64,000 nt of DNA from an uncultured Paracoccaceae bacterium. Its GTDB lineage: Bacteria; Pseudomonadota; Alphaproteobacteria; Rhodobacterales; Rhodobacteraceae. The position numbers and the translations under genes are program-made. The stretch lies in assembly GCA_947489325.1 (NCBI GenBank), contig CANLDA010000003.1, positions 1 through 64,000 on the forward strand, in the 5' to 3' direction. Shown here piece after piece: positions 75 through 28,987 of this stretch; positions within the stretch are counted from its first letter, which is position 1, and every line of letters begins with the position of its first letter. Below the pieces are notes generated by a model, which was given only the letters and a program-made list of their open reading frames with translations, was not told the DNA's origin and did no database searches.

Positions 75-740
75 CTAGCAACCAGTCCCTGCAACCACCA
101 CTCCGACAGTCTGAACAATAACACGCACATCCGCCCCAAGGGAAAGTTCACGGTAATACCGTGTGTCGTGAATGGCACGTTCGGCAAAGCTGCTTTCGTT
201 GCGGTCGCTGACTTGCCAGTATCCGGTGATCCCCGGGCGCATCGCATAATAGGCGGTTCCGGGATAGATGCTGCGTTGATCAACCATCATTGGGCGCGGG
301 CCAACAATCGACATATCCCCACGCAACACGTTCCAAAGCTGTGGCAATTCATCAATCGAACATTTGCGAATAAACAAGCCAATCCGCGTGATCCGTGGAT
401 CGAAACGCAACTTTTGCTTCTCATCCCACTCTTTGCGGGCCTCTGGGTTCTGGGCCAAATAGCGTTCCAACAAGGCATCTGCATTGGGCACCATGCTGCG
501 CAGTTTGAGCATGGAAAAGACCTGTCCATTTCGCCCCAGACGACGCTGGGTATAGAATGGCATGCGCCCATCAAGCGCGATGAGAATTGCAAATATACCG
601 ATAACCACTACTGCAATAGGCGCACAAACCAAGACCAGAAAAATATCCAAACAGCGTTTGGTAAAACTTCGGTAGAGTCCGCCCCGACGAGTTTCCAGAG
701 CAAATGCGTTCTGAAACTCACCCTGTGAGTAAAAAGCCAT
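75..740 (-). CDS. Initiating sugar transferase for exopolysaccharide (undecaprenyl-phosphate sugar phosphotransferase)
   Basis: This 221-aa protein is a bacterial sugar transferase of the WcaJ/PssY type, which moves a sugar-1-phosphate onto undecaprenyl phosphate to start a polysaccharide repeat unit at the inner membrane. A hydrophobic segment lies at about residues 30-55. It is followed by the family motifs KLRSM, DELPQLWNVLRGDMSIVGPRP and GITGYWQVSDR. The length is that of the short, single-membrane-segment catalytic version, not the five-segment WbaP form. The ATG at 740 has a GAGGGG ribosome site just upstream. The Wzz-like gene lies upstream on the same strand across a 488-base gap, so this gene probably has its own promoter. 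Sugar specificity cannot be read from the sequence. Confidence 0.9.
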   Translation of the reverse strand: MAFYSQGEFQNAFALETRRGGLYRSFTKRCLDIFLVLVCAPIAVVVIGIFAILIALDGRMPFYTQRRLGRNGQVFSMLKLRSMVPNADALLERYLAQNPEARKEWDEKQKLRFDPRITRIGLFIRKCSIDELPQLWNVLRGDMSIVGPRPMMVDQRSIYPGTAYYAMRPGITGYWQVSDRNESSFAERAIHDTRYYRELSLGADVRVIVQTVGVVVAGTGC

Positions 741-1228: not shown

Positions 1229-2497
1229 TCAGCCAGCAACAACAATGCCCAAGATAAGGATCACTACCAAAGCAACACCCCCAAGCATCACCGATCGAAT
1301 GAGATGGCGTCGCGCTTTGGCGTTTGGTTTTTCTACGGTTGGGATGGACACGATTGGACGAATGCCCACTTGCTGTTCCAGCTGACGCGCTGTGCGAATG
1401 ACAGGGTTGCGCAGCTCAAGCAGAAATGCGGCGGCCAAAGCAACAAGAAGACTGACCAAAGTGCCAGATGCGACGATACGTTTGCGGTTCGGGGAAATCG
1501 GATATTCCGGCACCAAGGCCCGTTCGAGCAAAGTAAAACTTTCCGCTTGCTGACTCTTTTGCAGCATTTGCCCGGTTTCTGCTTCGGCCTGACTGCGGGT
1601 AATGGCGCGATATTGTTCTGACAGTTTTTCCAGCTGACGTTCCAAGGTGTTGAACGTGCGTTCAACCTCGGGCGCGCGGGCAATGATGCCTTCTGTCTCG
1701 GTGGCACGCTGACGCAAAAGCGCGCGCTGTTCCTCTAGCCGCAACACACGATTGGCCTGCACAGTGCTGGCCCCCGGCTGCAATCCTGTGTTCAACTCAA
1801 CAATCTGACGTTCGATATCCAATTCGGCGGCGCGCAATTCGCCAAGCCGTTCATGGGCTTCGTCAACACCTGCGGGCAATGCTTCGGCATTGACGCTTTT
1901 GAAATTGGCAATTTCCTGTTCCAATGCACGGATCGCGCCACCAACGCGGGCCTCTTCACCTTTGAAGAACTCCAGCGTTTCGCGGGCGCGTTCTTCGCGA
2001 CGACGGCGTGTTTGATCCAATACATTGGTCACAAGCTCATTGGCTACAAGCGCTACAACTTGTGGATCTTGCATGGTTACAGTGATGCTTAGGGCGGTGG
2101 GCGAAATATCAGAGCGCCATTGTAGTGTCGGATCAATCACACGTGTCACAGTCGCAGATTGACGCAATAATTCTGCCTTCATGCCATTTTGAATGTCACC
2201 GCCGGCAAACAGGTTAAACTTCTCAACGATATGCAGCAGATTATCACGTGCCATCACCTGTTGTTCGACGATTTGCAACTGCTGCAAAGTTGACGCATTC
2301 ACGGATTGCGCCCCGGCTGTTGGATCTTGAATCTGGGGTTGTTCAATCTGGATCAACGCCGAAGTTTCATAAAGGCGTGGCAGGCTGGTGGCATAGAGGA
2401 CAGACAGCAAGATGCCACCCAATACGGTAACCGTTATCAGCACTACATGCCGACGTATCATTCCAACATAGTCACTTAATGACTGGAACTGATCCAT
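1229..2497 (-). CDS. Wzz/GumC-like polysaccharide chain-length or export co-polymerase, no kinase domain
   Basis: This 422-aa inner-membrane protein has the Wzz fold. An N-terminal membrane segment lies at about 15-35 and is followed by a periplasmic region with long heptad-like helices (about 130-310). A second membrane segment is at about 345-365 (RKRIVASGTLVSLLVALAAA) and a third, hydrophobic one is at the extreme C-terminus. The Pro/Asn-rich PEYPISPNRKR stretch before the second segment is typical of GumC/ExoP proteins. There is no Walker-type BY-kinase domain, so it would need a separate kinase or act alone. The ATG at 2497 follows AAGGAG with good spacing. It lies 120 bases downstream of the PPTase gene and probably belongs to the same polysaccharide locus. 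Confidence 0.85.
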   Translation of the reverse strand: MDQFQSLSDYVGMIRRHVVLITVTVLGGILLSVLYATSLPRLYETSALIQIEQPQIQDPTAGAQSVNASTLQQLQIVEQQVMARDNLLHIVEKFNLFAGGDIQNGMKAELLRQSATVTRVIDPTLQWRSDISPTALSITVTMQDPQVVALVANELVTNVLDQTRRRREERARETLEFFKGEEARVGGAIRALEQEIANFKSVNAEALPAGVDEAHERLGELRAAELDIERQIVELNTGLQPGASTVQANRVLRLEEQRALLRQRATETEGIIARAPEVERTFNTLERQLEKLSEQYRAITRSQAEAETGQMLQKSQQAESFTLLERALVPEYPISPNRKRIVASGTLVSLLVALAAAFLLELRNPVIRTARQLEQQVGIRPIVSIPTVEKPNAKARRHLIRSVMLGGVALVVILILGIVVAG

Positions 2498-2617: not shown

Positions 2618-3313
2618 TCAAGCCTTGCGCTCTTGCGGCAAGAAAACAAGGCTCAGAATCTGGCAACCGATCACCAAATTGTAACCCGCCAATGTAGAAC
2701 CCGCCGCAAATACCCCTGTATTTTCCACGAATGTTGCAGAAAACCGGCCGTGCGCCGGGTCAAGGCTGATGGCAATGCGCTCAAACCCGAACATCGCCTT
2801 GGTCAGCGGGTACTGGCACTTAAAGGCCGCCTCTTTTGCGCTGAAAATACGTTTGGCCAAAAGCGCGCTCTCTTGCGGGGAGTGTCCACGCAGCCATGCC
2901 TTTTCTTCCGGAAGGCACACAGTGTCCAACAAGGCAGGCGCCAGCGGCAAAGCGCCTTCTATATCGGTGCCGATGGCACGAAACTCTGCCGCATGCCCCA
3001 CAAGTGCGATGCAATGGTCCTGATCATGGGTGAGAGAGCCGACAATACCCTTTGGCCAGATGGGCGCGCGATCTGATCCCATAGGGATTTCAACGGCTGG
3101 ATGGTGCAGCCGCGCCAGGGCTTGTCGAATGGCGGTTCGTCCCAAGGCGAATTCACGTTGTCGTTCCGGCACGGCACGCGCGATGGCTTGGTTTTCAGCT
3201 GGCCATAAAGACGCGGGCGTTTCGGTTTTAGACACAACCGCAGAACAGACACCTTGCGGCAACAGACGCACTAGTGCCCCTTTCAGCGTTGCGTCCTGTG
3301 TCAAAATGCTCAT
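2618..3313 (-). CDS. 4'-phosphopantetheinyl transferase (Sfp/EntD superfamily)
   Basis: This 231-aa protein is predicted to transfer the phosphopantetheine arm of CoA to carrier-protein serines. The magnesium- and CoA-binding signatures are present: GTDIEGA around residue 118 and FSAKEAAFKCQYP about 45 residues later. The length fits the single-chain Sfp/EntD class. The ATG overlaps the stop codon of the NRPS gene in an ATGA junction, so translation is probably coupled. That makes it the likely activating enzyme for the ACP of the PKS and the PCP of the NRPS next door. The region between the two motifs has the arginine-rich N-terminal half usual in EntD-like members. Confidence 0.92.
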   Translation of the reverse strand: MSILTQDATLKGALVRLLPQGVCSAVVSKTETPASLWPAENQAIARAVPERQREFALGRTAIRQALARLHHPAVEIPMGSDRAPIWPKGIVGSLTHDQDHCIALVGHAAEFRAIGTDIEGALPLAPALLDTVCLPEEKAWLRGHSPQESALLAKRIFSAKEAAFKCQYPLTKAMFGFERIAISLDPAHGRFSATFVENTGVFAAGSTLAGYNLVIGCQILSLVFLPQERKA

Positions 3314-6300
3314 TGAGCCGCCTTATTTCGTTTCGCTCGCATAGCGCGCCGCTTGGCCATCGCGTCACTGCGACCTTGGGCGCGCCCGGTTGAGGGTGCG
3401 TTGCCGGACGGGGTGTCTGTCGCCCTGGGAGATGCCAACTTGCCCGCCCGCTTCTCAAGCTGGCTTGCCAGTTCATTGAGTACCGGAAAGCGGAAAATGT
3501 CGGTAATGCTGACCTTGGCGATGCCCAAGCCATCGCGAATTTCACGGTGCGCCTGAACGGCAAGCAGGGAATGCCCTCCGAGTTCAAAGAAATTGTCACG
3601 GCCAGAGACCTGAACCACCCCCAGAATACGTGACCATATAGCCCCGATCTGTTTGGCAAGATCGCCCGTTGAGGTTGCTTCCTCTGGCGCAGTTGTGGCC
3701 GGGGCGGGTTTGGCCATTTGCGGCGCAGGCAGGGCGTTTCGGTTGATTTTCTTGTTGGGGGTCAACGGAAAGCTGTCCAGCGTCACAATATGCGTTGGCA
3801 CCATAAAATCAGGCAAATCGCGTGACAGTGCAACGCGTAGTGCGGCACCTGCTGCGCCACCAGTCACATAGCCCACCAGACGCTGATCCCCTGGTTGATC
3901 TTCTCGCGTGATAACCACAGCCTGACTGACACCCGGTAGCGCCTCAAGCCGGGCCTCGATCTCGCCCAATTCAATCCGATAGCCGCGCAATTTGACCTGA
4001 TGGTCTGCGCGCCCAAGGAAATCAAGTCGCCCATCCCCGCGCCAGCGCACCAAATCGCCCGTGCGATACATACGACCCTGACCTGCGAAAGGATCATCTA
4101 GGAACCGTTCTGCTGTCATGGCCTCGCGCTGCCAATAACCACGCGTAACGCCTGCACCTGCGATCCACAGCTCGCCTGCCACACCAACGGCTACGGGCTG
4201 GTGCTGATCGTCCAAAACATAAAGGCGCGTGTTGGCGATGGGGGTGCCAAGGTCGGCAACGCTTGCAGAAGTCGTCACATCAACCTTGCCCGTGGTGGAC
4301 CAGATTGTGGTTTCCGTTGGGCCATACATGTTTTCGATGTGGGCATCGGTTGCGGTCTGCAATTCAATGGCCAAACTTGTCGGCAGGGCCTCTCCGCCAA
4401 TCATCACATGGCGCAAAATGCCCATGGAGGCACGGGCCGCATCATCACCAACCAACATTCGCGCCATGGACGGGGTGCATTGCAGGTGTGTCACCTTGTG
4501 GCGATGTATTTGGGCCGCAATGGAATAATCCCCCTCAGCGGGGCCCGCACCGGAATTGGCGCGTTGCAGCACCTCTGCTAAGGGCTTCAACCCCTCCAGA
4601 ACCACATCCGTATCAATGCCATAATCAATCAGGCAAGCGACCTCTGCCACACCAATAGATTTCAGTTCTTCAACCCGGGCAAGGCAGTCTTCGACCGTAC
4701 CAAACAGGCCCGAGTCCTCAAAGTATCGCAAGAATGCGAAATCAAGGATTTCCTCAAGCTCATCATCACTCAGGATACCAAGATCAAGCTGAAACGGGTT
4801 GTCGACACCTTTGGGTTTCTTAAAGGCAGGAAAGGCCCAAGCGTATTGCTTGATCAGCCCTGCCGCGCTGCGCAGATAGTTTTTCATCGGCTCGCGCGCT
4901 GTTTCACGCACCTCTTCGCGGTCATGGCCAACAAAGGTGTGCAACATCAACGTGACCTTGAAGTCCTTGGGATCATGACCCGCTTTGCGCAGCTCAGCGT
5001 GATAGAGGCCGATTTTCTCCTGCACCTCTGCAACGCTTTGCCCCAAAAGGTGCGTCAGGATATGAGCGCCGGCCTTGCCTGCGTCTTTCCACGTCTGCGG
5101 ATTGCCAGCAGTGGTGACCCACAGTTCCAATTCTTTGGAAACTGGGCGCGGCTGGGTGCGGGCGGCGAACATACTGCCATCCTTGCGCGCAAACTCCACC
5201 GCTTCGCCACGCCACAGCGCACGCAAGTCTTTCATCTGTTCAAACATCACTGTGCGGTTTTCTGGCGGTGTATGATCAGGCCACAGCACAAAGTCATCCG
5301 GCTGCCAACCCGACGCAATCGCAAGCCCAGCGCGGCCATTTGTCAGATTGTCAATTACAGCCCATTCTTCGGCAATACGCGCTGTATGGTGCAAAGGTGC
5401 GACGCAACTACCTGCACGAATGCCAATGTTATGAGTTACAGCCGCCGCCGCCGCGCCCGTAACCGACGGGTTTGGGTACGGCCCACCAAAAGCATGAAAA
5501 TGACGTTCAGGCGTCCAGACCGCACAAAATCCGTTCTGATCAGCAAATTTTGCGCCTTCCAGCAAGAGACGATATTTCCCCGACCCGGGGGCATCATCGT
5601 TGCCCCAGTAATAGATCGAAAACTCCATTCCTTGGGCAGAGTTGGCGACAAACCCGTTGGAAATCTGGCTCGCTTTGTCGTCCCCGGAAATCACCACCTT
5701 GAATCCACGCGCAAGTGTATAGAACAGCTCTAGCACGGAAATATCAAAGCTAAGGCTTGTAAGCGCCAGCCAAGTGCCTGCTGGATCATGTTGCACGCGC
5801 TCATCCATGCCTGCAAAGAAATTGGCAACGTTACGATGCTCTACCATCACGCCCTTTGGCACACCGGTAGAGCCAGAGGTATAAATCACATAGGCAAGAT
5901 CATTGCCTGTCACGCCGCTGTCAGGATTGGCATCAGGGCCATCTTGCACGTCGTCTATCACCAGAACCTGCGCGTTATGTGTGGGCAGGTCTGCCTGTAT
6001 TGCAGACTGCGTTACAATCACGCCTGCCTGACTGTCCTGAATATAATGCGCAAGCCGATCTTGTGGATAGGCCGGGTCCAGCGGCACATACGCACCGCCT
6101 GCCTTAAGAATACCCAAGACCCCGATCATCATGTCCAGCGACCGTGTGCAATACAGCCCAACAAGTGCGCCCGGCACCACGCCCATGGCTTGCAGTTGGT
6201 GACCAACACGGTTGGCGGCGCGGTTTAATTCATCATAACTCAGACTTTGGTCTTCATACACCACCGCCGTGGCCTCTGGTGTGCGCAGCACCTGCGCTTC

Positions 6301-7830
6301 AAACGCGGAATGCATCGGTACATCATCGAATGCGCAATCTGTTGCGTTCCAGAGATGCAGAAGCTCGTCTTGTTCCACCCCATCCAATAGAACAATCTCT
6401 CGCCCCTCTGACACACATCGCAAGGCGGCTTCAAACCGTGCAACAAGGCGTGTTGCATGCTGATCCTCAACACGTGCACGATCTAACACCATATGCAGAG
6501 TATCACCCAAAACGATGTTCACAGCGCTAACCGGAGTCACACCGACATCCAGCACTGCCAGATCAGGGCATGTCAGGTGGGGCAACTCGGCATCTCGCAA
6601 AGGCAAATCTACTGCAATAGCCCCTTTCTCGGCATACACTAGGGCCACGTCTGCCATGGCATCGCCCAATGGCACAGGCACCCAGTCGGTTAGGTATCCC
6701 GAAGCAACGGGCAAGGCGCCCGAGACATAGGCAAGAGAGCTGCCGATCTCACACCCACTGTTAAGTGCAAATCCGGCAAGGGCCTGCCATATTTGTGCAG
6801 AAGTCATGCCGTCAGGGCGCGCAATCGCATAGCGTTTGTAATTGGCATCTGACGCATCACCGATCAAAGGCAATTGTGCAGGCAGGAAATTGGCCAATTG
6901 TCCGCGCCAAAAGGCATCGTTCGAAGGTGGGATATCCGCACGCGCCGCGTCAACCTTGGTACCGACGCGCACCACATCAGATGCACGCAACGCTTTTCCA
7001 GACATGTCACGCAACCCGGACAAGCGCACAGCACCCTGCGCGCAGGCAATGGTCATATCCTCAGCCACCGCTACAACTGTGCCCGGCATGCCCCCGCCTT
7101 CGATATCGTCTGCGGCACCTACGGCAAAGACCTGTCCTGCGATTTCAATCTTGGCAAGGCCAACAGGGTTCCAATATTCGCCATGATCCAAGGCCCGTAT
7201 CAGGCGTGCGACATCCGCCGAATTGTCCGCAAAATCAAGCGGGGGAATAGGTTTGTTTCCGGCAAAATAGCTGCGCTGATTTAAGTCCTGAGGCGTGCCT
7301 GCGACGTCCTCGGACGTCAGCATGCCCAGCAGATCATCAAAGCTTTCGATTGCGGCCTCATAACAGCGGGTGTTCAGCGTAAGCGCGGTATCTTTGGGGC
7401 CAATATCAAACATACGCTGCACGAGGATATTGCCTGTATCCGCACGCGCCTGCATCAGATGCCATGTGATCCCGTGGTGACGTTCACCATGGATCAGCGC
7501 CCAGACAGGGGCATTCAGCCCGGCATAGTGCGGCAAAGGACCATCGTGGAAATTCACCGCGCCCTTTTGGGCCTGTTCCAACAAGGCTTGTGGCAACATA
7601 TCAAGGTTGGCGATACTCAATAGCCAATCAAAGCTAAGGGCACTGCACCGTGCCACCAAATCCTCATCGGCAGAGATAACCGGCACGTTTCGTGTTTGTG
7701 CCCAGTTGGAAATACCCTGACTGCGGGTGACAACGGCCACGATATCATGACCCGCCGTCAACGCGGCCTCTGCGCATTGGATCAAAAGGGATTCATTGCC
7801 GATCAAAAGCATCTTGAGTCTATCAGACAT
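3310..7830 (-). CDS. NRPS initiation module: formyltransferase / C-remnant / A(Gly) with inserted luciferase-like monooxygenase / PCP
   Basis: This 1506-aa protein carries a methionyl-tRNA-formyltransferase-like domain at 1-300 with the triad Asn93, His95 and Asp131 intact. About 190 residues at 305-500 resemble the back half of a condensation domain and lack HHxxxDG. An adenylation domain follows at 505-1370 (A3 TSGSTGVPKG at 651-660). It is split after A4 (SFDISVLEL, 694-702) by an FMN-dependent luciferase-like monooxygenase at about 733-1090. A5 (YGPTETT) resumes at 1169, and a PCP has Ser1421 in GGHSL. Code residues D696, I697, L700, Q1117, M1143, G1145, M1168, I1176, W1177 and K1361 read DILQMGMIWK, very close to the glycine code DILQLGLIWK. 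A basic tail ends the protein and there is no thioesterase. The start at 7830 was chosen over an upstream frame because GGAGG precedes it. It overlaps the glycosyltransferase gene by 8 bases. The inserted oxygenase belongs to the MupA/Atu3671-type natural-product group. Confidence 0.93.
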   Translation of the reverse strand: MSDRLKMLLIGNESLLIQCAEAALTAGHDIVAVVTRSQGISNWAQTRNVPVISADEDLVARCSALSFDWLLSIANLDMLPQALLEQAQKGAVNFHDGPLPHYAGLNAPVWALIHGERHHGITWHLMQARADTGNILVQRMFDIGPKDTALTLNTRCYEAAIESFDDLLGMLTSEDVAGTPQDLNQRSYFAGNKPIPPLDFADNSADVARLIRALDHGEYWNPVGLAKIEIAGQVFAVGAADDIEGGGMPGTVVAVAEDMTIACAQGAVRLSGLRDMSGKALRASDVVRVGTKVDAARADIPPSNDAFWRGQLANFLPAQLPLIGDASDANYKRYAIARPDGMTSAQIWQALAGFALNSGCEIGSSLAYVSGALPVASGYLTDWVPVPLGDAMADVALVYAEKGAIAVDLPLRDAELPHLTCPDLAVLDVGVTPVSAVNIVLGDTLHMVLDRARVEDQHATRLVARFEAALRCVSEGREIVLLDGVEQDELLHLWNATDCAFDDVPMHSAFEAQVLRTPEATAVVYEDQSLSYDELNRAANRVGHQLQAMGVVPGALVGLYCTRSLDMMIGVLGILKAGGAYVPLDPAYPQDRLAHYIQDSQAGVIVTQSAIQADLPTHNAQVLVIDDVQDGPDANPDSGVTGNDLAYVIYTSGSTGVPKGVMVEHRNVANFFAGMDERVQHDPAGTWLALTSLSFDISVLELFYTLARGFKVVISGDDKASQISNGFVANSAQGMEFSIYYWGNDDAPGSGKYRLLLEGAKFADQNGFCAVWTPERHFHAFGGPYPNPSVTGAAAAAVTHNIGIRAGSCVAPLHHTARIAEEWAVIDNLTNGRAGLAIASGWQPDDFVLWPDHTPPENRTVMFEQMKDLRALWRGEAVEFARKDGSMFAARTQPRPVSKELELWVTTAGNPQTWKDAGKAGAHILTHLLGQSVAEVQEKIGLYHAELRKAGHDPKDFKVTLMLHTFVGHDREEVRETAREPMKNYLRSAAGLIKQYAWAFPAFKKPKGVDNPFQLDLGILSDDELEEILDFAFLRYFEDSGLFGTVEDCLARVEELKSIGVAEVACLIDYGIDTDVVLEGLKPLAEVLQRANSGAGPAEGDYSIAAQIHRHKVTHLQCTPSMARMLVGDDAARASMGILRHVMIGGEALPTSLAIELQTATDAHIENMYGPTETTIWSTTGKVDVTTSASVADLGTPIANTRLYVLDDQHQPVAVGVAGELWIAGAGVTRGYWQREAMTAERFLDDPFAGQGRMYRTGDLVRWRGDGRLDFLGRADHQVKLRGYRIELGEIEARLEALPGVSQAVVITREDQPGDQRLVGYVTGGAAGAALRVALSRDLPDFMVPTHIVTLDSFPLTPNKKINRNALPAPQMAKPAPATTAPEEATSTGDLAKQIGAIWSRILGVVQVSGRDNFFELGGHSLLAVQAHREIRDGLGIAKVSITDIFRFPVLNELASQLEKRAGKLASPRATDTPSGNAPSTGRAQGRSDAMAKRRAMRAKRNKAAQ

Positions 7831-8830
7831 ACGTGTCCTCCTGCCTTGATATTTCAGGCACCTCGCGCGCCTTAGCGGCGCGTCCCCGTAACAGAATCCG
7901 GAAATCATGCATCACTAAATCACGCAAAAAGCGACGTGGGCCTGTCACTTTCTTACCCGTCAATGCCGCACGAACCCACGCCAAAACACCGCCTGCGACA
8001 TGTGCAAGGGTCGCGCCAATCGCATAAACCACCCCGTGGTTGCGCAAGAAATATTGCAGTCGAGAGTCTAGCCAGAACCCAGGGATACGGTCCCATTTGC
8101 GCATGCCGGTGGATACGGACCCCACGTGCAAGACACGGCTTTCGACTACATAATGAGTTTGCCAACCCGCGCGCGCACCGCGCAGGCACAGGTCGGTTTC
8201 CTCAAAATACAGAAAATAGGATTCATCAAAAAGCCCGATGTCTCGCAACATTGCGGTGCGCATCATCATACTGGCACCAGCTGCCCAATCCACCTGACAG
8301 GTTTTTGTGGGAATCGGCGGGGCAACAATGCTGTTTTTCAACAGGCGACTGATTGGTCCGAATTTGGCGGCACCTTCAAATTCGCCCGCTATGGTTGGGA
8401 AACGAAAGGATGAATGTACAGCCTCAACGCCATCTTCGTACAGCTGGCTACAAGCAAAGCCGCATTTGGGGTGGGCACGCATATGTTGCATCAAGACGGC
8501 AATCGCGCCCTGATCGACAAAGGCGTCAGAATTCAGGATCAGCACAAATTCCGGCACACCCTGTCCGCGCGCCATCTGTTGACCGATACCCAGACGAATG
8601 CCGAAATTATTGCCTGCACCAAACCCACCATTGTGCCCGGATTGCGCCACATGCACGCGGGTTTCGGACCAGTCTTGCGCAGACAGCTTGTCGAACGATC
8701 CATCCGCGCTGTCGTTGTCCACCACAACGATTTGTCCATTAATGCCCTCGGTTGCGCGCAGCGCAGCCTCTACGGCCTGCATGGTCATTGTGGGGGTGCG
8801 GTAATTCAAGATCACTGTCAAAAGGCTCAT
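7823..8830 (-). CDS. Family 2 glycosyltransferase (rhamnosyltransferase-like)
   Basis: This 335-aa GT-A fold enzyme opens with LLTVILNYRTP and VVVDNDSADGS, the nucleotide-sugar binding start of family 2. A DSD-like metal site (LNSDAFVD) lies near residue 98 and the acceptor-side motif YFLYFEETDLCLRGARAGW near 210. These resemble dTDP-rhamnose-using enzymes of the WcaA/RfbF kind. The ATG at 8830 is preceded by AGGAGG and overlaps the PKS stop in ATGA. Its 3' end overlaps the NRPS start by 8 bases. Its place between PKS and NRPS in a coupled unit suggests that it glycosylates their product, though it could act on the polysaccharide instead. The donor sugar is not determinable. Confidence 0.88.
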   Translation of the reverse strand: MSLLTVILNYRTPTMTMQAVEAALRATEGINGQIVVVDNDSADGSFDKLSAQDWSETRVHVAQSGHNGGFGAGNNFGIRLGIGQQMARGQGVPEFVLILNSDAFVDQGAIAVLMQHMRAHPKCGFACSQLYEDGVEAVHSSFRFPTIAGEFEGAAKFGPISRLLKNSIVAPPIPTKTCQVDWAAGASMMMRTAMLRDIGLFDESYFLYFEETDLCLRGARAGWQTHYVVESRVLHVGSVSTGMRKWDRIPGFWLDSRLQYFLRNHGVVYAIGATLAHVAGGVLAWVRAALTGKKVTGPRRFLRDLVMHDFRILLRGRAAKAREVPEISRQEDTYV

Positions 8831-11800
8831 TCTGCGGCCTCCTGCCATGCGTCTGTGATGTCTGCCTCGGCGGCCTCGATTACCCGTTTCATGCGTGTGG
8901 CCAGAACCCGCACATTCGGTTCCAGAACCATTGAATCATGATCCCCCGGTACCTCGGTCACGTGCACATTTGGCACCCATTGCCCCCAATCATTATCGGC
9001 AAAAACATAGGCACGTTGACGATCAACCCAGCGGTCGCCCCCAACCTGCCAATAACCATTCAGCGGTGGGCGGAACAATTCAAGCCGGCCGTCCCAGCCA
9101 TGCATATCATAGGCTTCAACAGCAGACAGGAACGCAGCCTCGATCTCAGCATTATGAAAGTGCGGGGTTTCTTCGGCTTTGGAGTGATCTTGCGCGCGGC
9201 GTTTGGAAATTTCCCAAGCGATCCGACTTTTCAGCCATAGCATTGGATACAGCGGCCCACGACGCTTCAGTTCGATCAATTGCATCCACATCCGATCCCC
9301 AAACCTCAGCGGACGGCGTTGTGGCAAAGGCGTATCCAGCAAGATCACAATCGCCACTGTGTCGCCTGCAGCTTCCAACTGACGCGCGATTTCATAGGCG
9401 GTGATCCCCCCGCCAGAAAACCCGCCAAGAAAGTACGGGCCCTTGGGTTGCACCGTTTTCATTTCACGAATGTAATCCGTCGCCGCCTCGCGCAAATCTC
9501 TGTGCGGCGGGGCATCGCCAAACAACCCACGCGCCTGAAGCCCATAAAACGGTCGGTCCGCGCCAAGAAGATGCGCGAGATGGCGCAAGTTCAGAACATT
9601 GCCAAACATACCCGCCACAAGGAAAAACGGCGCTTTGCGCCCGCCTTCGCCATTATGCATTGGGACCAGATGGGTAAAGCGGCGCAGCGGTACGACGCCT
9701 GAATCCGTCGAGGCGTCACTGGTGTCTTGTGGGCCAATACGGTTTTCGATCAAACCCGCACATTGCGCAATTGTCGGGGCCTCAAACAGCACCGAAATGG
9801 GGAATTCCACCGCCCATGTCTTTTTCACCATGGAAAACAGGCGCACCGCGACCAACGAATGCCCGCCCAGATCAAAAAAGCTGTCGTTTGTGCCAACATC
9901 CTGCACGCCCAACAGATCTTGCCAGAATCCGGCAAGGGTGCGCTCTATATCGGTTTGTGGGGCCACAAAATCATTATCCAGATCGGGTCTTTCAAAGGTT
10001 TGGCCGCGATCGATTTCGTCCAGCTCTCCTGCCTGATCAATCAATGCATTCAAATCCATTGACGACACGATAATCTGCGAGGCTTTTGCCGCCAGAGCGC
10101 GGCCAAACATTTCCGCGCCTTCATCGGGGCGAATGCCCTGTTGCAGGTTGTGACGCAAGCGTTCCTCGGCGGGGGTGATGGCATCAGTGGGGGCTTCGAT
10201 AAAGCGAACATCCTGCGCGCGAACAGGGGCACTTGCCGAAACGCCCAGTGCATCTTGCATGCGTTTCAGGGTCAACCCACGCACTTGCACGCAAACTTGT
10301 CCCGCCTCATTCAAAACATCTACGTCAAAGCGAGCAACGCCCTGTGTGTCACTGCCAGACACCAATCGCACCCAACTGACAACCTGCGACGGCAGGTCGT
10401 GATATACCCGGATAGCCCCATAAGATAATGGCACCCACAGCGCTTGTTGCGCATAACCATCAATCAGATCCATCGCCCAACCTGTGGCAATATCCATCAT
10501 CCCCGGATGCAGTGCCATACCGTCATCGACAAAGGCATTGTCCAGTGACAGCTCTGCCAACCCCTCGCCCTTTCCAAAACGCACGGCGCGCAACACTTTC
10601 CAGCGGGGACCAAAGGCAAGATGCGCCTCTTGTGGGGCGGACAGAGCATCGGTGCCACGGGTTTCTTCGCCACATCGGCCTGCCACCTGAGCCGTTAAAA
10701 TATCTTGCGCCGCAGGCATGGTGCCCAAAGCAACAGAGGCTTCGGCATGCAACATTTCGGCCTGACGCCCCTCGACCATAACCCGGCTTACGATTTGCAC
10801 GTCATACCCGATTGCTGCACGTATCAGGCGCACACGAATGTCCTGCGAGACTCCATCAGAAACCACCAAGGGACGCAGGAATATCAGGTCTCGAATTTCA
10901 TAGGGTTTCTGTTCGCCATGTGCCCGCAAGGCCTGCGCGATCAATTCGATATATCCCGTACCGGGCCAAATCGCAGTGCCATCCAGCATGCGGTGTTGAT
11001 CCAGAACCCAGCATTCCTGATTGATATGGGCCGCAAAGACCCGGTGTCCCTGTCCATCATACCCACCTTGGGTCAAAATAGGGGTTTCAATCGGGGCAAG
11101 GCGCTCTTTCGCAGATGCAGGTGCGAGGGCCTCTGCCGCCATACCAACGCCGTTCCAGATACCCCAGTTCAACGCCAGAACACGGGTTTTATCCTGTGCG
11201 CGGCTTTCGGCATACGCATTCAAAAAGGCATTGGCCGCGACGTAATCCACCTGCCCCGCCGGCGCGATGGCAGTGGACGAAGACGCAAACAGTGCCAGCC
11301 AATCCAATGTGCCATCAGGGAACAACGCATCAATCACCTGCGTGCCGTGCAATTTGGGGGCCATAACGTCTTCGACTGAGGCAGAGTTTTTCGACAAAAG
11401 CGGCGCATCATCCACAACGCCTGCGGCATGAATTACACCGTGAATGTCACCCTGTTTTGCCTGAACATCACGCACGACTCCTTGCATCTCTTCCAGATTA
11501 CTGACGTCTGCGGATTTAACGATAACTTGACCACCCAGCGCTTCAAGCCGCTCGATGGTGGCAATTCTGTCAGCAAATCGCGGATTAAGACGCGCCTCAT
11601 TCCACTGTGTACGCGCCGGAAGCGGGGTCCGCCCGACCAGAACAATGCAGCCCGCCCCTTGTTGCAGCAGTGACTGCGCCAACGTCACGCCGATGCCGCC
11701 AAATCCTCCGGTGATCAGATAGGTGCCACCAGCCCGTATATCCGCACCTTGCTCAGGCAACGCATTGGGCCGATAAATCCGCTCAAACCGCTTTGCACCG

Positions 11801-14800
11801 CGCAATGCGGCCACGCGATTTTCAGGTTGGGCGATGATTTCTTCAAGCACGGCATCCACTAAATCTGCCTGCCCCGACACAACGTCCAACAACCCTGCGG
11901 TCACCTGCGGCAATTCACGCGGCGCAACCTGAAGCGGGCCCAGCACCGTTGCCTTTTCTGGGTACGCCAGCCCTTCGCTACGCACCTGTACTGCACCGGA
12001 ACTGATGCAGGACACATGCACGGGCCTTGGGAGGTTTTCATCCGTAATCGCCTGCATCAAAAACAGGATCGAGTGCAGTCCTTGTTCAAGGTTACGATGG
12101 AAAAATGAACTGCCCGGGCGCGCACCTTCGTCTTGCGTTAACAGCCACATGTGCACGATCCGGCTGGGTGCACGTCCGTTGACAATCAGATCAGATATCA
12201 GTTGGTCATATCCTTCACGACCACGCTCTGGGGCCAGAACATAGTGATCCGGTGACAACCGTGCAAAGGCATCACCTGTGTCCACCTCAACCACCCCATG
12301 ACCTGCCGTGCGCAGGCGTTCGGCGACCTTTGCTCCCGTTCCGGCGGCATCGCGAAAGATCAACCAGCTTTCGGTTGGCAGCAGTGACAACTCAGTTTGC
12401 ACATCAATGTCACATTGCGCCAAGGTCGGACGCCACGCCGGACGATATCCCCAGGATGCCATGTCATCTGTGCGCAAAAGTTCGGTATCTTCTGCGACCG
12501 CTTTGCCCGGTTCAATAAAGTATGGTGCGCGCTGGAAGGCATAGGATGGCAACACAACGCGATTGCGACGCGCCTCTCCCCAGATTTGGGCCCAATCAAT
12601 GCTAGCGTTACAAGCCCACAGGCGCGCCAAGACAGTCATGAACCAAATGTCATCGGCCACATCTTCGTCCATATGCCGCAACAAGTTGATCACATGTCCC
12701 GCGCCAATATTCGGCTGCATCCGCGCCAGAACGCACAGGGTTTTGCCTGGGCCAACTTCAAGATAAACGCGATTTTTCTCGGCCGAAAGCGTTTCCATAC
12801 AGTCACCAAACCGCACGGTGTGGCGCAAGTGGGTCACCCAATACTCTGGGCTTGTGGCCTCTTCATCTGTCAGAGGTTGCCCGGTGCGATTTGAGATGAT
12901 CTGCACCTTTGGCACGGCCAGTGTAATTCCAGATAGATAAGCCCTGAATTCATCCAAAACAGGGTCCAACATAGCAGAATGTGCCGCAATATTAATTGGA
13001 ACGCGCTGACATTCGATGTCTTGTGCCGCAAGGGTTGCGGCCAAGTCGTCCAATATAGCATCAGCCCCAGAAACGACTGTCAGCATAGGAGCATTCACCG
13101 AGGCAATGTCCACATCTTCACCGATCAGGGCCTCGACTTCGGCCACAGGCAAGGGGATGCTCAGCATTCCGCCTGCAGGCACGCTGTCCATCAATTGTCC
13201 ACGCAACAGCACGAGGCCGATGCAATCCTCAAACGACATCACGCCCGCCAGACAGGCCGCCGTGTTTTCCCCCATGGAGTGACCCACAAGCGCGGATGGC
13301 ATCACATCCCAGCTTTGCATCAACTGTGCCAATGCATATTCCGCGATCATGATCAGCGGAAGCTGTAGCGAGGGCTGTTTTAGCTGCTCTGCCGCGCCGT
13401 CAACCTGCCCCAACCATAAGGCACGCACGTCATAGCTGACCTGTGCCTGTAAATGGTCCAATCCGCGGTCCATCCATTCTTGGAAAACCGGTTCTGTTTC
13501 ATAGAGACCTTGCGCCATGCCGGCGTATTGTGCGCCGCCACCGGGGAACATGAACACAACTTCGGCCGCATCCGGGGTGGCGTCATGGGCAAACACGCGC
13601 CCTGTCTCTGCCCTGTCCAGCAATTGCGCGGCCTCGGTTGCGTTGTGTGCCACCACAACGCGGCGTTTTTCAAAGGCGCGGCGCCCCTCCTTCAAGGTCC
13701 ATGCAACATCGGCCAAGTTTTGTTCGGGATTGGTACGCAAATGCGTCACTAATGCTGCGGTATTTGCATCCAATGCCTTTTTCGTACGCCCCGAAATGAC
13801 AAGCGGCTGAAAGGGCCAATCGCTTTCGTCGCTTGATACGCGTTCGGGTGCCTCTTGTACCACCACATGCGCATTTGTGCCGCCTACGCCCAATGAATTC
13901 ACCCCGGCCCGGCGCGCGCCCTGTCGTTGTGGCCAATCAGTCAGACGGTCATTCACCACAAAGGGGCTGTTTTCAAAATCAATGGTTGGATTAGGGGCCT
14001 CATAGCCCAGACTTGGCGGCATCTGTTGATGATGCAACGCAAGCGAGGTTTTGATCAGACTGGCGGCCCCGGCTGCTGTATCCAGATGCCCGATGTTTGT
14101 TTTGACCGACCCGATACGGCAAAATCCGCTGTCCGCCACATCGCCGAATGCTTCCGTCAGGGCAGCCACCTCGATCGGGTCGCCCAGATATGTGCCTGTG
14201 CCATGGCATTCGATGTAATCCACGGAATGCGGCTCTATTCCAGCCATTTCCTGCGCTTCTGAAATGGCCGCGGCCTGACCGCCAACACTGGGCGCCAAAT
14301 ATCCAGCCTTATCCGCGCCGTCGTTATTGATCGCGGATCCACGAATGACGGCCCAGATGTGATCGCCGTCCGCTATTGCGTCATCCAAGCGACGTAGGAC
14401 TACAACTCCGGCACCGCTGCCAAAAACCGTGCCTTCAGCGCGATGGTCAAAGGCGTGGCAATGACCGTCCGGGGACAGAATTTCCCCATCGCGATATGTA
14501 TATCCCCGACCATGAGGCAACTCAATCGTAACGCCGCCTGCCAGCGCCATATCGCATTCACCGGTCAGCAGCGACTGACAGGCGTAATGCACAGCCACAA
14601 GCGACGTGGAACAGGCCGTTTGAATATTGACGCTTGGCCCCTTGAGATCAAGAAAATGGCTAAGGCGCGTACTCAGGAAATCCTTGTCATTGCCTGTGTG
14701 GCGCAGCAGGAACATGCCCGTATTTTTGACGAGATCAGGATTGGAACACACATTGAAATAGAAATAGCTGCCCATACCGCACCCGGCATAAACCCCAATC

Positions 14801-15168
14801 GGCCCGCCAAAGTTTTCAGGCATGTGACCGGCGTTTTCCAAGGCCTCCCAGCTGACTTCTAGAAATTGGCGATGTTGGGGGTCCATAATGGCCGCTTCTT
14901 TGGGACTAAGACCAAAAAACTCAGCATCAAAACGCTCAAACCCCTTCAATTTTGCCGCAGCGGGGACATAATTGGGTTGGCGAATTCGGGCACGGCTTTC
15001 GCCTACGGCAAGCAATTCTTCTTCGCTTAGGCGTTCAATTGATTCTACACCATCGCGCAGGTTTTCCCAAAATTCGGCAACAGACTCCGCCCCCGGCAAA
15101 TGCGCGGCCATCCCAACGATAGCGACATCATTGTCGGACCAATCCAGTTTATCTGCACCTTTCGTCAT
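8827..15168 (-). CDS. Type I modular polyketide synthase, KS-AT-KR-DH-ACP-TE
   Basis: This 2113-aa protein contains one extension module. The ketosynthase at 13-435 has Cys186 in TACSTS, His322 and His361. The acyltransferase at about 538-830 has Ser631 in GHSMGE and a IAAH motif at 727-730, which leans towards malonyl-CoA but is not decisive. The ketoreductase has a structural half at about 930-1120, a catalytic half at 1147-1345 (TGGFGGIG) and Lys1272 and Tyr1309. The residues VDD at 1252-1254 lie where B-type enzymes have LDD. The dehydratase at about 1375-1635 has His1392 and Asp1559. The ACP has Ser1771 in GGHSL, and the thioesterase has Ser1918 in GFSGG and a late GDHDSM. The KR precedes the DH, the reverse of the usual order. 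The thioesterase implies that this protein releases the final chain. No strong ribosome site precedes 15168, but the reading frame and first domain fit. Confidence 0.95.
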   Translation of the reverse strand: MTKGADKLDWSDNDVAIVGMAAHLPGAESVAEFWENLRDGVESIERLSEEELLAVGESRARIRQPNYVPAAAKLKGFERFDAEFFGLSPKEAAIMDPQHRQFLEVSWEALENAGHMPENFGGPIGVYAGCGMGSYFYFNVCSNPDLVKNTGMFLLRHTGNDKDFLSTRLSHFLDLKGPSVNIQTACSTSLVAVHYACQSLLTGECDMALAGGVTIELPHGRGYTYRDGEILSPDGHCHAFDHRAEGTVFGSGAGVVVLRRLDDAIADGDHIWAVIRGSAINNDGADKAGYLAPSVGGQAAAISEAQEMAGIEPHSVDYIECHGTGTYLGDPIEVAALTEAFGDVADSGFCRIGSVKTNIGHLDTAAGAASLIKTSLALHHQQMPPSLGYEAPNPTIDFENSPFVVNDRLTDWPQRQGARRAGVNSLGVGGTNAHVVVQEAPERVSSDESDWPFQPLVISGRTKKALDANTAALVTHLRTNPEQNLADVAWTLKEGRRAFEKRRVVVAHNATEAAQLLDRAETGRVFAHDATPDAAEVVFMFPGGGAQYAGMAQGLYETEPVFQEWMDRGLDHLQAQVSYDVRALWLGQVDGAAEQLKQPSLQLPLIMIAEYALAQLMQSWDVMPSALVGHSMGENTAACLAGVMSFEDCIGLVLLRGQLMDSVPAGGMLSIPLPVAEVEALIGEDVDIASVNAPMLTVVSGADAILDDLAATLAAQDIECQRVPINIAAHSAMLDPVLDEFRAYLSGITLAVPKVQIISNRTGQPLTDEEATSPEYWVTHLRHTVRFGDCMETLSAEKNRVYLEVGPGKTLCVLARMQPNIGAGHVINLLRHMDEDVADDIWFMTVLARLWACNASIDWAQIWGEARRNRVVLPSYAFQRAPYFIEPGKAVAEDTELLRTDDMASWGYRPAWRPTLAQCDIDVQTELSLLPTESWLIFRDAAGTGAKVAERLRTAGHGVVEVDTGDAFARLSPDHYVLAPERGREGYDQLISDLIVNGRAPSRIVHMWLLTQDEGARPGSSFFHRNLEQGLHSILFLMQAITDENLPRPVHVSCISSGAVQVRSEGLAYPEKATVLGPLQVAPRELPQVTAGLLDVVSGQADLVDAVLEEIIAQPENRVAALRGAKRFERIYRPNALPEQGADIRAGGTYLITGGFGGIGVTLAQSLLQQGAGCIVLVGRTPLPARTQWNEARLNPRFADRIATIERLEALGGQVIVKSADVSNLEEMQGVVRDVQAKQGDIHGVIHAAGVVDDAPLLSKNSASVEDVMAPKLHGTQVIDALFPDGTLDWLALFASSSTAIAPAGQVDYVAANAFLNAYAESRAQDKTRVLALNWGIWNGVGMAAEALAPASAKERLAPIETPILTQGGYDGQGHRVFAAHINQECWVLDQHRMLDGTAIWPGTGYIELIAQALRAHGEQKPYEIRDLIFLRPLVVSDGVSQDIRVRLIRAAIGYDVQIVSRVMVEGRQAEMLHAEASVALGTMPAAQDILTAQVAGRCGEETRGTDALSAPQEAHLAFGPRWKVLRAVRFGKGEGLAELSLDNAFVDDGMALHPGMMDIATGWAMDLIDGYAQQALWVPLSYGAIRVYHDLPSQVVSWVRLVSGSDTQGVARFDVDVLNEAGQVCVQVRGLTLKRMQDALGVSASAPVRAQDVRFIEAPTDAITPAEERLRHNLQQGIRPDEGAEMFGRALAAKASQIIVSSMDLNALIDQAGELDEIDRGQTFERPDLDNDFVAPQTDIERTLAGFWQDLLGVQDVGTNDSFFDLGGHSLVAVRLFSMVKKTWAVEFPISVLFEAPTIAQCAGLIENRIGPQDTSDASTDSGVVPLRRFTHLVPMHNGEGGRKAPFFLVAGMFGNVLNLRHLAHLLGADRPFYGLQARGLFGDAPPHRDLREAATDYIREMKTVQPKGPYFLGGFSGGGITAYEIARQLEAAGDTVAIVILLDTPLPQRRPLRFGDRMWMQLIELKRRGPLYPMLWLKSRIAWEISKRRAQDHSKAEETPHFHNAEIEAAFLSAVEAYDMHGWDGRLELFRPPLNGYWQVGGDRWVDRQRAYVFADNDWGQWVPNVHVTEVPGDHDSMVLEPNVRVLATRMKRVIEAAEADITDAWQEAAE

Positions 15169-15276: not shown

Positions 15277-16644
15277 TCAAGGCGAATTCAAGGCACTTAG
15301 TGCCAGAACGGCATCAGCGTTCATCCAAAAGGCAAATCCGGCAAGCCCCAGACCTAGCACAAGAAATACCGCATCATGCAGCGCATCCCAAGTGCCCTGT
15401 TGTCGCGCTAGCCAGACCACCACGGGATAGGCCAGCACATAGGCCACGCCCTGACCAATAAGCGCCCCGATCAAGCCCCAGTATTGCGCGCCAATCACCA
15501 AAGCCGCCAGAGTCAGCGCCGCACGCGTTGCGGCCAGCACAAAGAATTGTCGGGAATTGCCTGCCGCTAGTGCAGCCTGATCATAGGTCAGTGCAATCAC
15601 ATGGGGCACTTGCATGGCTGCAACGACCACCACAACACCGCCCGCAAGCGCATACCGTGGATCATAAAGCGTCGTCACCAACCACGCCCCAACCAGCGCA
15701 AAGAGACCCAGCAGTGCCAAAATCAATAAGCTGAGCGCAACCCGCATGCGCTGCAATTTTCGATAATTTTCGGGTGCATCTTTTGGGGGCAACTCGCGAT
15801 AGATCGGGATCAACGTTTTGCGCACAACCATACCACCCAACAGCATCGGAAAGCTGGCAAGGAAGTAACCGATATTATAAATGCCCAGCGCCTCTAACGT
15901 CAGATACTTGCCAAGGATAACCTTGTCGCCTTGGGACAACAAAAATCCAGCCACAGTGCTGAGAAACACCCATTTACCAAAATGGATCAACTCATGTGCC
16001 GCTGCTTTTTCCCAGCGAAACCTGTTGCGCGCGCCGGGCAAATACGCATCATACAACCAAAGCTGAATGGACGCGCTGACCAGCCCGCTGAGGGCCAGCG
16101 CCCAGACCGACTGCAACCACCACGCCAACAGCACCGCCGCGATGATACCACTGATTTGTGTGATGACATCAATCGCTGTCACCCGCCCCAGCATCAAGTG
16201 GCGGTTGGCGGTTTCAAGGCGCGTGGGATTAAACCCTGTGATGACCAAGGATAGCCCGGCAACGGGCAACAGTTGCGCCAATTGCGGGGCGTCGTAAAAC
16301 CATGCGGCAGGCATCGCCAAGGCGCATGTTCCCAGCCACAACAACACCCCGCGCCAAACTTGTATTGTCCACGCGGTATCCAGGAAACCCGGATCATCGC
16401 CGCGTTTGCTTTGCATGATAGATGGGCCGACGCCAACGTCCGAAAACATCGCCAACCCCATCATAAACACCCCAACAAGGGCCATCATGCCAAAGGCCTC
16501 TGGGAACAGCAGTCGCGTGAGGATCAAATTAGAGGCCAGTCGCAGCGCCTGCGAAGTGGCATAGCCCCCCAATGTCAGTGCCGAACTGCGCATCACACGA
16601 TCACGCAGGCCGTCGCCGCGCAGAAACATCGCAAGGCGGCTCAT
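15277..16644 (-). CDS. Wzx-like oligosaccharide or lipid-linked-product flippase
   Basis: This 455-aa integral membrane protein of the MOP/polysaccharide-transport superfamily flips lipid-linked glycans across the inner membrane. The sequence shows about 12 hydrophobic segments. Its N-terminus, ALTLGGYATSQALRLASNLI followed by LTRLLFPEAFGMMALV, is typical of lipopolysaccharide-biosynthesis flippases of the WzxC/RfbX kind. The frame extends upstream to 16659, but the ATG at 16644 has GGAG at the right distance and overlaps the preceding glycosyltransferase stop in ATGA. The PKS gene starts 108 bases downstream on the same strand. The substrate could be the polysaccharide repeat, the PKS-NRPS product, or a conjugate of both. 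Confidence 0.88.
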   Translation of the reverse strand: MSRLAMFLRGDGLRDRVMRSSALTLGGYATSQALRLASNLILTRLLFPEAFGMMALVGVFMMGLAMFSDVGVGPSIMQSKRGDDPGFLDTAWTIQVWRGVLLWLGTCALAMPAAWFYDAPQLAQLLPVAGLSLVITGFNPTRLETANRHLMLGRVTAIDVITQISGIIAAVLLAWWLQSVWALALSGLVSASIQLWLYDAYLPGARNRFRWEKAAAHELIHFGKWVFLSTVAGFLLSQGDKVILGKYLTLEALGIYNIGYFLASFPMLLGGMVVRKTLIPIYRELPPKDAPENYRKLQRMRVALSLLILALLGLFALVGAWLVTTLYDPRYALAGGVVVVVAAMQVPHVIALTYDQAALAAGNSRQFFVLAATRAALTLAALVIGAQYWGLIGALIGQGVAYVLAYPVVVWLARQQGTWDALHDAVFLVLGLGLAGFAFWMNADAVLALSALNSP

Positions 16645-17462
16645 CTTCCGCGTCTCCATTCATCGCCCCGTCCGGGGCCAAGACGCACTGCAAGGGCCAC
16701 CGATGCATAGGCCGCAAATCCCATTGGATCGCGTAACGCCAATCGTAATGCACCCAGTATCCCAAGGGGTTGCTTGTCATCATTGGTCAGAAGTTCTGGG
16801 AACCAGTCAGATATTTCTACCACCCCTCTGTCCTGCCGCCGACGTACACGCACCAGTTTCGAAAAGCCTTCAACAACGGGCCATTCATAAGAGGCCTGAA
16901 CCTTCAGTCGTTCACGTGACGCGAATTGAAGGCGTGCAAATGTGTCATCGGAGATAATGGCAGGCCAATCGCCCCAACGATCGCGCCCTGCCGCATTCAC
17001 TGCAAAAACACCTGCGCCCGGCACACCCTTGGCCATAAATGGCACCTGCGCCCAAATACGAGCATAGGCACGGCTGAACGCGGTTTGGGCGGTCATCTTC
17101 AAATGACCGCTGGCATAGGTTGGCGCTTTCGTGGACAGGCACTGATAAAGCTGCGCCAATAGGGCAGAATCCACAACAACATCCGCATCCAGATAAACCC
17201 GTGCGGTACCTTGCGCCGCCATATCTCCGGCATTCAGAGCATTGGCCTTGCCACCCTCTGTCAGATCAAGCAACACAAACCGCCAACCTCGTGCACCAAT
17301 CCTATGACGAAAGCTATTCGCAACGGCAACAGTGTCATCCTCACAGCCATTCGCGACGATAATCACCTCAGCGCGCTCTGGTCCATCCGAACGCAAAACC
17401 GCCTCAAGGCAGGATCCAATCCACGCCTCTTCGTTGCTGGCTGGGATAATAATGCTCAGCAC
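16641..17462 (-). CDS. Family 2 glycosyltransferase
   Basis: The first residues LSIIIPASNEEAWIGSCLEA and VIIVANGCEDDT are the classical family 2 opening. DADVVVD near residue 100 is the metal-binding DxD. ISDDTFARLQF near 190 is the catalytic-base region. The frame can be opened at a TTG (17489) with no ribosome site. GTG at 17462, nine bases after AAGGAAGGG, puts the start directly at the conserved beta strand and is preferred, giving 273 aa. It overlaps the flippase start by ATGA and leads the transcript. The product probably adds a sugar to a lipid-linked intermediate at the cytoplasmic face. Confidence 0.85.
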   Translation of the reverse strand: MLSIIIPASNEEAWIGSCLEAVLRSDGPERAEVIIVANGCEDDTVAVANSFRHRIGARGWRFVLLDLTEGGKANALNAGDMAAQGTARVYLDADVVVDSALLAQLYQCLSTKAPTYASGHLKMTAQTAFSRAYARIWAQVPFMAKGVPGAGVFAVNAAGRDRWGDWPAIISDDTFARLQFASRERLKVQASYEWPVVEGFSKLVRVRRRQDRGVVEISDWFPELLTNDDKQPLGILGALRLALRDPMGFAAYASVALAVRLGPGRGDEWRRGR

Positions 17463-17578
17463 TCGTTGTTGCCCTTCCTTATGATCCAAAAATGGTCACG
17501 TCTGCGCCCCAAACATGTTAGACACCTGTATAAGATCAAGTTTCACATAGATTTCTAAGTACGAGCAAGGCCTGCCAC
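17463..17578. promoter_or_regulatory. Divergent promoter region between two glycosyltransferase genes
   Basis: These 116 bases separate outward-reading genes and must contain or overlap promoters for both the long minus-strand biosynthetic unit and the plus-strand family 4 glycosyltransferase. The part around 17515-17565 is AT-rich. I could not assign -35 and -10 boxes with confidence. Confidence 0.4.
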
Positions 17579-21659: not shown

Positions 21660-21739
21660 TCTTGGACTCCAATTGTAAGCCAAGGCCCAACGCAGGGCCT
21701 GCGTCAAAGATATTGGCTAATAGGTCGTTGGCAAGTTCG

Positions 21740-26255: not shown

Positions 26256-26286
26256 GATGTCGCCCCTTTACATGTGCCGACATGTT

Positions 26287-27210: not shown

Positions 27211-27216
27211 TAATGT

Positions 27217-28966: not shown

Positions 28967-28987
28967 TTCGCGACCTCCCAAGGTCTT

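Follow-up and report, generated by a model that had tools for sequence, protein, structure and literature searches.

We analyzed a 64,000-nucleotide stretch of DNA from an uncultured Paracoccaceae bacterium (assembly GCA_947489325.1, contig CANLDA010000003.1, positions 1 to 64,000; hereafter, the whole stretch is called the window). It encodes a nonribosomal peptide synthetase (NRPS) whose adenylation (A) domain is split by a luciferase-like monooxygenase (LLM). At a probability of roughly 0.5, this NRPS is an initiation module that makes an oxidized glycine starter for the adjoining polyketide synthase (PKS). Judging by its domains and motifs, the most likely role of the enzyme is to load glycine, add a formyl group to it, and oxidize it via the in-built flavin oxygenase. 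Many marine bacteria have conserved the gene cassette to which it belongs inside their polysaccharide gene clusters. The formyltransferase (FT) domain and the polysaccharide setting were absent from an earlier reading of the same DNA (hereafter, the original prediction) and are added here.

The split adenylation domain and its glycine code

The A core breaks off past A4 (SFDISVLEL, from residue 720) and restarts ahead of A5 (YGPTETT, residue 1195), with A-domain profile matches resuming at ~1127–1133 after the insert and the C-terminal subdomain matching at 1316–1387. We modeled residues 505–1405 with AlphaFold (mean pLDDT 83.3, pTM 0.65), using 48 of 76 relatives in the alignment. Both A halves of the model jointly superposed on GrsA PheA (1amu; Z 53.4, 500 aligned, 2.0 Å, model range 5–896), so that, as modeled, the LLM interrupts an otherwise complete A fold. 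Profiles, motifs, and superposition together bear out the original claim that an LLM divides the domain between A4 and A5. Of 44 related loci, 43 show the same order of FT, LLM-split A domain, and peptidyl carrier protein (PCP), the exception being L052, which gave no single full open reading frame (ORF) and was left out of our 44-row NRPS alignment. LLM-split A domains are also present in other phyla. Because of this recurrence the split is not a product of chance, and the full-length relatives rule out both chance and annotation artefact.

Mapped on the alignment, the ten specificity positions of the window read DILQMGMIWK, the glycine-type code that had originally been read. The canonical glycine code is DILQLGLIWK, and the window A domain is predicted to activate glycine. 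Every row of the NRPS alignment (44/44) carries DILQ[M/F/L/Y]GMIWK. In a second set of 22 loci, positions one to nine of the code match DILQ.GM[I/V]W or DMVQLGMVW in all 20 LLM-split A domains; the tenth varies or is uncovered in several of them. One locus (L075) is common to both sets, which leaves 63 different LLM-split A domains, and all 63 combine a glycine-type code with Met at code position 7. Therefore, the two Leu-to-Met changes in the window include a mark of the LLM-split subgroup. The second-set domains are spread over Pseudomonadota, Cyanobacteriota (Nostoc), Actinomycetota (Streptomyces), and Deinococcota. Split glycine A domains with an LLM are thus widespread, with the glycine code kept across four phyla, and in Alphaproteobacteria they are often formylated initiation modules. 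Outside Proteobacteria, an LLM-split glycine-code NRPS on a Deinococcus plasmid (L225) adjoins a PKS; a gene for polysaccharide biosynthesis lies ~2.7 kb off. Another locus (L228) has a second LLM, where no A code was readable.

The insert itself is a clear member of the MupA/Atu3671 family, the comparison for which the original prediction had called: it scored 470.2 and 474.8 bits against TIGR04020, far over the cut-off of 244.45, and covered positions 1–340 of the 341 in the model. By sequence search, its closest solved relative is PuwE (6ket, E 1.2e-97), followed by luciferase-like monooxygenases, and at the sequence level it aligns closely with PuwE and luciferases. The fold matches listed for the A-LLM model were A domains, including LgrA (5es5), with no LLM among them, and the kinship of the insert is sequence-based. 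Across 42 relatives (L075 omitted), mean identity to the window was 0.74 for the LLM, 0.62 and 0.64 for the two A parts, 0.60 for the PCP, 0.49 for the FT, and 0.26 for the linker behind it. The LLM is therefore the most conserved domain of the NRPS, with 100 of its 351 columns invariant in the 44 rows, and it is likely to be enzymatically active, as far as conservation can tell. On a Streptomyces plasmid (L191:10573-16361), an LLM-split NRPS overlaps a flavin reductase gene at its end, with LysW/LysX-type genes alongside. This pair is a candidate system for two-component flavin chemistry.

Natural losses of the LLM number at least two. The locus L218 (1976-11628, G085:C42) holds a complete cassette without the LLM, in which A4 and the next block are 56 aa apart, vs. 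419 in L221 (G979, same genus) and 421 in the window. Its FT, A, PCP, ketosynthase (KS), acyltransferase (AT), acyl carrier protein (ACP), and thioesterase (TE) motifs are retained, its code is exactly DILQLGLIWK, with Leu at position 7, and its PKS has a deleted dehydratase (DH) and a ketoreductase (KR) with serine and tyrosine replaced. By contrast, LLM, KR, and DH are all present in L221. A second LLM-less cassette, L219 (G097:C17:141000-160999), keeps Met at position 7. It has lost the FT NxH, PCP serine, KS cysteine, AT serine, KR tyrosine, and DH histidine; one stop interrupts the PKS frame, most frames remain long and open, and ACP and TE residues are retained. We set L219 aside as clean evidence of co-loss, since its cassette is decayed throughout.

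In a tree of 58 A domains (56 with an LLM, plus L218 and L219), L218 is sister to the LLM-bearing L221 (support 100/99), which marks it as a loss, and L219 falls within an 11-row group (100/100). Because the two LLM-less rows fall apart and the other 56 carry the LLM, two losses are the simplest account of the tree, and we reject the view that these cassettes originally had an A domain without the LLM. The KR tyrosine is lost in 2/2 LLM-less cassettes vs. 0/46 others (Fisher 0.0009), a value on which we do not rely because it counts the decayed L219 and ignores kinship. Still, the joint loss in L218 suggests that LLM oxidation and the KR and DH steps serve one product, and L218 and its genus mate L221 form a comparison pair for the contribution of the oxygenase.

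A probable initiation module in a polysaccharide locus

The NRPS has the layout of LgrA, an established formylating initiation module: an N-terminal FT followed by A and PCP domains, with no active condensation domain. Formyl_trans_N/C profiles (Pfam/NCBIfam) matched residues 78–313, and N119, H121, and D157, which we take to be the catalytic residues by analogy with methionyl-tRNA formyltransferase, are conserved in 44/44 rows. The HHxxxDG condensation motif was found between residues 318 and 530 in none of the 44 rows. These two features back the initiation-module reading already suggested in the original prediction. The poorly conserved linker is perhaps a relic of the C-lobe of a condensation domain; in a model of FT plus linker (52 of 69 relatives in the alignment), the listed fold matches were all taken up by formyltransferases. 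The FT is absent from the LLM-split A domains of Nostoc, Streptomyces, and two further loci (L190, L191, L211, and L212). The gene probably starts at position 7830, an in-frame ATG (Met27 of the ORF), rather than at 7908, because homology of the relatives begins only at about residue 30; the gene end at 7830 given originally is thus probably right. No TE domain was found within the NRPS protein with Pfam/NCBIfam profiles.

The NRPS lies in an operon-like cassette ordered PKS, glycosyltransferase, NRPS, and phosphopantetheinyl transferase, with small overlaps and a Wzz gene next (Table 1). The PKS residues KS C186, KR Y1309, DH H1392/D1559, ACP S1771, and TE S1918/H2077 are conserved in 46/46 rows (the window and 45 of 50 loci, leaving out L037, L075, L188, L192, and L210). 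Because the order KS-AT-KR-DH-ACP-TE contains no enoylreductase, it predicts an unsaturated or hydroxylated acyl unit as its product.

Table 1. Features of the cassette and its surroundings in the window; residue numbers count from the start of the 1532 aa ORF.
Feature	Position	Strand	Basis
NRPS initiation enzyme, FT - degenerate linker - A(LLM) - PCP	3310..7908	minus	1532 aa ORF
FT domain (residues 30-317)	6958..7821	minus	N119, H121, D157 in 44/44 rows
Poorly conserved linker (residues 330-520)	6349..6921	minus	HHxxxDG in 0/44 rows
A core part 1 (residues 536-745)	5674..6303	minus	AMP-binding profile; ends just past A4
Inserted LLM (residues 763-1113)	4570..5622	minus	TIGR04020
A core part 2, A5 and C-terminal subdomain (residues 1131-1400)	3709..4518	minus	profiles and fold
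PCP domain (residues 1420-1482)	3463..3651	minus	PP-binding match; Ser1447 in 44/44 rows
Type I PKS, KS-AT-KR-DH-ACP-TE	8827..15168	minus	profiles and active-site residues
Family 2 glycosyltransferase between PKS and NRPS	7823..8848	minus	profile match
Sfp-type phosphopantetheinyl transferase, overlaps NRPS stop	2618..3313	minus	profile match
Wzz-type polysaccharide chain length determinant	1229..2497	minus	Pfam
Bacterial sugar transferase, WbaP-like catalytic domain	75..740	minus	profiles
Wzx-type oligosaccharide flippase	15277..16659	minus	Pfam
Family 2 glycosyltransferase	16641..17489	minus	Pfam
EpsE-type family 4 glycosyltransferase	17579..18778	plus	NF041876, over cut-off

We surveyed 248 genomes of the bacterial family, one per genus. 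Among the matches listed, 75 of the 247 other genera's genomes hold a full-length NRPS relative, counted as a single place spanning residues ≤34 to ≥1489. Across the class, 11/385 genomes exceeded the TIGR04020 cut-off, and across the phylum 19/398 matched the LLM profile at E≤1e-60. Two genomes (G126 and G132) carry two full-length NRPS copies each. A third (G245) carries a full-length copy and, at L220:4842-8255 (G245:C24), a second, shortened NRPS in one open frame that lacks pieces of the linker, LLM, and A domain.

Of the 75 full-length relatives, 40 loci, a non-random and mostly best-scoring selection, were compared for gene order. In 39/40, the PKS is found upstream of the NRPS and on its strand, and in 34/40 the phosphopantetheinyl transferase is found downstream; a glycosyltransferase sits directly upstream of the NRPS in 38 loci by rule and in L052 by eye. 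The window encodes the Wzx flippase, Wzz, and initiating sugar transferase expected of a Wzx/Wzy-type locus. In 37 of the 40 genomes, Wzz shares a contig with the NRPS and lies within ~25 kb of it; the same is true of Wzx in 31. By counts from the match tables at E≤1e-25, each genome has at most one match of each, and two genomes lack each. This linkage far exceeds the one or two per cent expected from random placement in genomes of 3 to 6 Mb. In Ruegeria conchae, the cassette lies on a plasmid with rfb genes, and in Aminobacter niigataensis on one that bears genes for export, a flippase, and an O-antigen ligase. With Wzz linked in 37/40 genera, the tight Wzx/Wzz association provides a testable case for assembly-line modification of surface polysaccharide in common marine bacteria.

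Elsewhere in the polysaccharide region, a sulfatase gene with RTX calcium-binding repeats (21740-24049, minus strand) suggests that the glycan of the locus is sulfated or processed. A minus-strand ORF of 973 aa (18786-21707) and several neighbors (24013-28981) had no Pfam match at 1e-5.

Proposed chemistry and alternatives

Under the initiation-module reading, the phosphopantetheinyl transferase would, as its family indicates, arm the carrier domains, and the A domain would load the PCP with the glycine predicted from its code. The FT, given its domain type and catalytic residues, would N-formylate glycyl-PCP. The LLM, with reduced flavin mononucleotide (FMN) and O2, may then oxidize C-alpha to give N-formyl-alpha-hydroxyglycyl-PCP, a step made plausible by the precedent for monooxygenases of glycine A domains reported in PMC10204066. 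The formyl group could here take the role of the upstream peptide in the MtaG and MelG enzymes discussed below. We infer that the hemiaminal would be retained rather than collapse; alternatively, the LLM step could end in formamide loss and a glyoxylyl thioester. The PKS is predicted to add a malonyl unit, with KR and DH acting and the TE releasing or transferring the acyl unit. In the weakest step, suggested by the gene neighborhood, the acyl unit might be glycosylated or attached to exported polysaccharide, so that the product probably joins or decorates it.

A broader proposal, tentative and on the whole unlikely, is that in many Rhodobacterales and Hyphomicrobiales the hybrid NRPS-PKS is an integral component of the machinery that assembles polysaccharide. 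It would make an N-formyl-hemiaminal acyl unit of four carbons (4-formamido-4-hydroxy-crotonyl or similar), with the glycine carbon oxidized within the A domain. Glycosylated or hung on the exported chain, this unit would provide a masked aldehyde.

Several observations weigh against the initiation-module reading. The FT is nearer to the sugar N-formyltransferases ArnA (E 6.7e-22) and WbkC (9.7e-19) than to the F domain of LgrA (1.2e-07). In ten of the 40 loci, the 20 kb initially read showed no Wzz, Wzx, or WbaP match of >100 bits. The co-loss of LLM, KR, and DH comes from one well-kept variant, L218, with L219 broken throughout. Moreover, PuwE, the nearest solved relative of the LLM, is proposed in PMC4219810 to hydroxylate an acyl chain rather than glycine.

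The best-surviving alternative, which we regard as somewhat unlikely, is that the cassette product is a free, secreted metabolite and that its genes sit in polysaccharide loci through historical linkage rather than function. Four loci from Methylobacterium and other Alphaproteobacteria (L189, L192, L207, and L208) carry FT-A(LLM)-PCP beside a KS-AT-KR-DH-ACP(-TE) PKS; in a search limited to homologues of window genes, they showed no polysaccharide homologue except a weak family 4 glycosyltransferase match in L189. In the Aminobacter locus, a TolC-family gene adjoins the PKS, which would also suit secretion. However, Wzz linkage in 37/40 genera, together with a glycosyltransferase between PKS and NRPS in 39/40 loci, would be hard to maintain by chance.

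More doubtful is a collapse of N-formyl-hydroxyglycyl-PCP to formamide and glyoxylyl-PCP, as in MtaG and MelG, so that the PKS starter would be a two-carbon glyoxylyl unit. The downstream KS, KR, and DH could handle an aldehyde-bearing starter, and such collapse is reported for myxothiazol and melithiazol in PMC10204066. The same paper reports that alpha-hydroxyglycine is kept in solanimycin B, and no TE directly follows the PCP of the window enzyme. In addition, an FT with N-H-D kept in 44/44 rows would be almost wasteful if its product were discarded.

It is quite improbable that the FT acts instead on a nucleotide amino sugar of the polysaccharide, leaving the LLM to oxidize unformylated glycyl-PCP. 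This possibility arises because the closest PDB sequences and folds belong to the sugar formyltransferases ArnA and WbkC and to methionyl-tRNA formyltransferases. Yet the FT is fused to the initiation module in 54/54 FT-bearing rows, and LgrA has the same domain order. Action on carrier-bound glycine is favored because the FT-A(LLM)-PCP and PKS pair also occurs, as in L189, L192, L207, and L208, without an evident polysaccharide cluster. Least probable is an LLM that is a non-catalytic structural relic: A, FT, and PCP motifs do survive without it in L218, but it is the best-conserved domain of the enzyme and is seldom lost (two cassettes noticed), and its loss in L218 coincides with that of KR and DH.

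Comparison with known systems

Hybrid clusters of this general kind have been described in related bacteria. According to PMC10584327, hybrid NRPS-like/type I PKS clusters of unknown product occur in 18/37 species studied, and PMC4062626 lists for Phaeobacter inhibens a PKS and an NRPS whose locus tags differ by two (Inhi_1972/_1974). Judged by these descriptions, such Rhodobacteraceae clusters (Roseibaca and Phaeobacter) are probably of the same type as that of the window, and the accessible portions mention no LLM, formyltransferase, or polysaccharide link. Type I PKS clusters of the alpha group in Acetobacteraceae combine PKS, glycosyltransferase, formyltransferase, and capsular genes, as the window does, with no LLM-split A domain mentioned in the accessible text (PMC8776678). 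In literature short of most subscription papers, our searches turned up nothing on formylating LLM-split initiation modules within polysaccharide loci and no paper on Atu3671, Atu3682, or Atu3670.

Among single enzymes, LgrA of linear gramicidin shares the F-A-PCP order and a matching A fold; unlike the window NRPS, it has no monooxygenase, and the two FT domains are only weakly alike (E 1.2e-07). PuwE differs in lying between PKS and NRPS modules, where it is proposed to hydroxylate an acyl chain (PMC4219810).

Until now, LLM-split glycine A domains were known from a few pathways. As described in PMC10204066, the glycine modules of myxothiazol and melithiazol synthesis carry a monooxygenase between A4 and A5 that hydroxylates C-alpha and leads to amide release, and SolF of solanimycin synthesis carries one between A8 and A9, with alpha-hydroxyglycine kept. 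Compared by published description, MtaG and MelG resemble the window enzyme in the A4-A5 position of the monooxygenase in a glycine-type A domain, in agreement with what the original prediction proposed. Their route of release does not seem to carry over. MtaG and MelG are late modules with amide release by a TE, whereas the window enzyme is an initiation module with an N-terminal FT that feeds a PKS. With no TE in the protein and a TE-bearing PKS as its partner, we reject an amide-releasing terminal module on architecture. SolF likewise embeds a flavin monooxygenase in a glycine A domain, with alpha-hydroxyglycine as its proposed product (PMC10204066), and differs from the window enzyme in its A8-A9 insertion and in being an elongation module. 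One locus of our set (L085:172-2925) has an LLM of this family placed behind most of the A domain, an apparent insertion near A8-A9 like that of SolF.

Finally, TIGR04020 records from Ruegeria, Paracoccus, and Aminobacter annotate the same architecture under the MupA/Atu3671 name, in a family that spans several architectures with a generic function. The protein family is therefore already known, named by NCBI as TIGR04020 and annotated in public records; what is new is its setting as an initiation module, the link to polysaccharide loci, and the variant that lacks the LLM.

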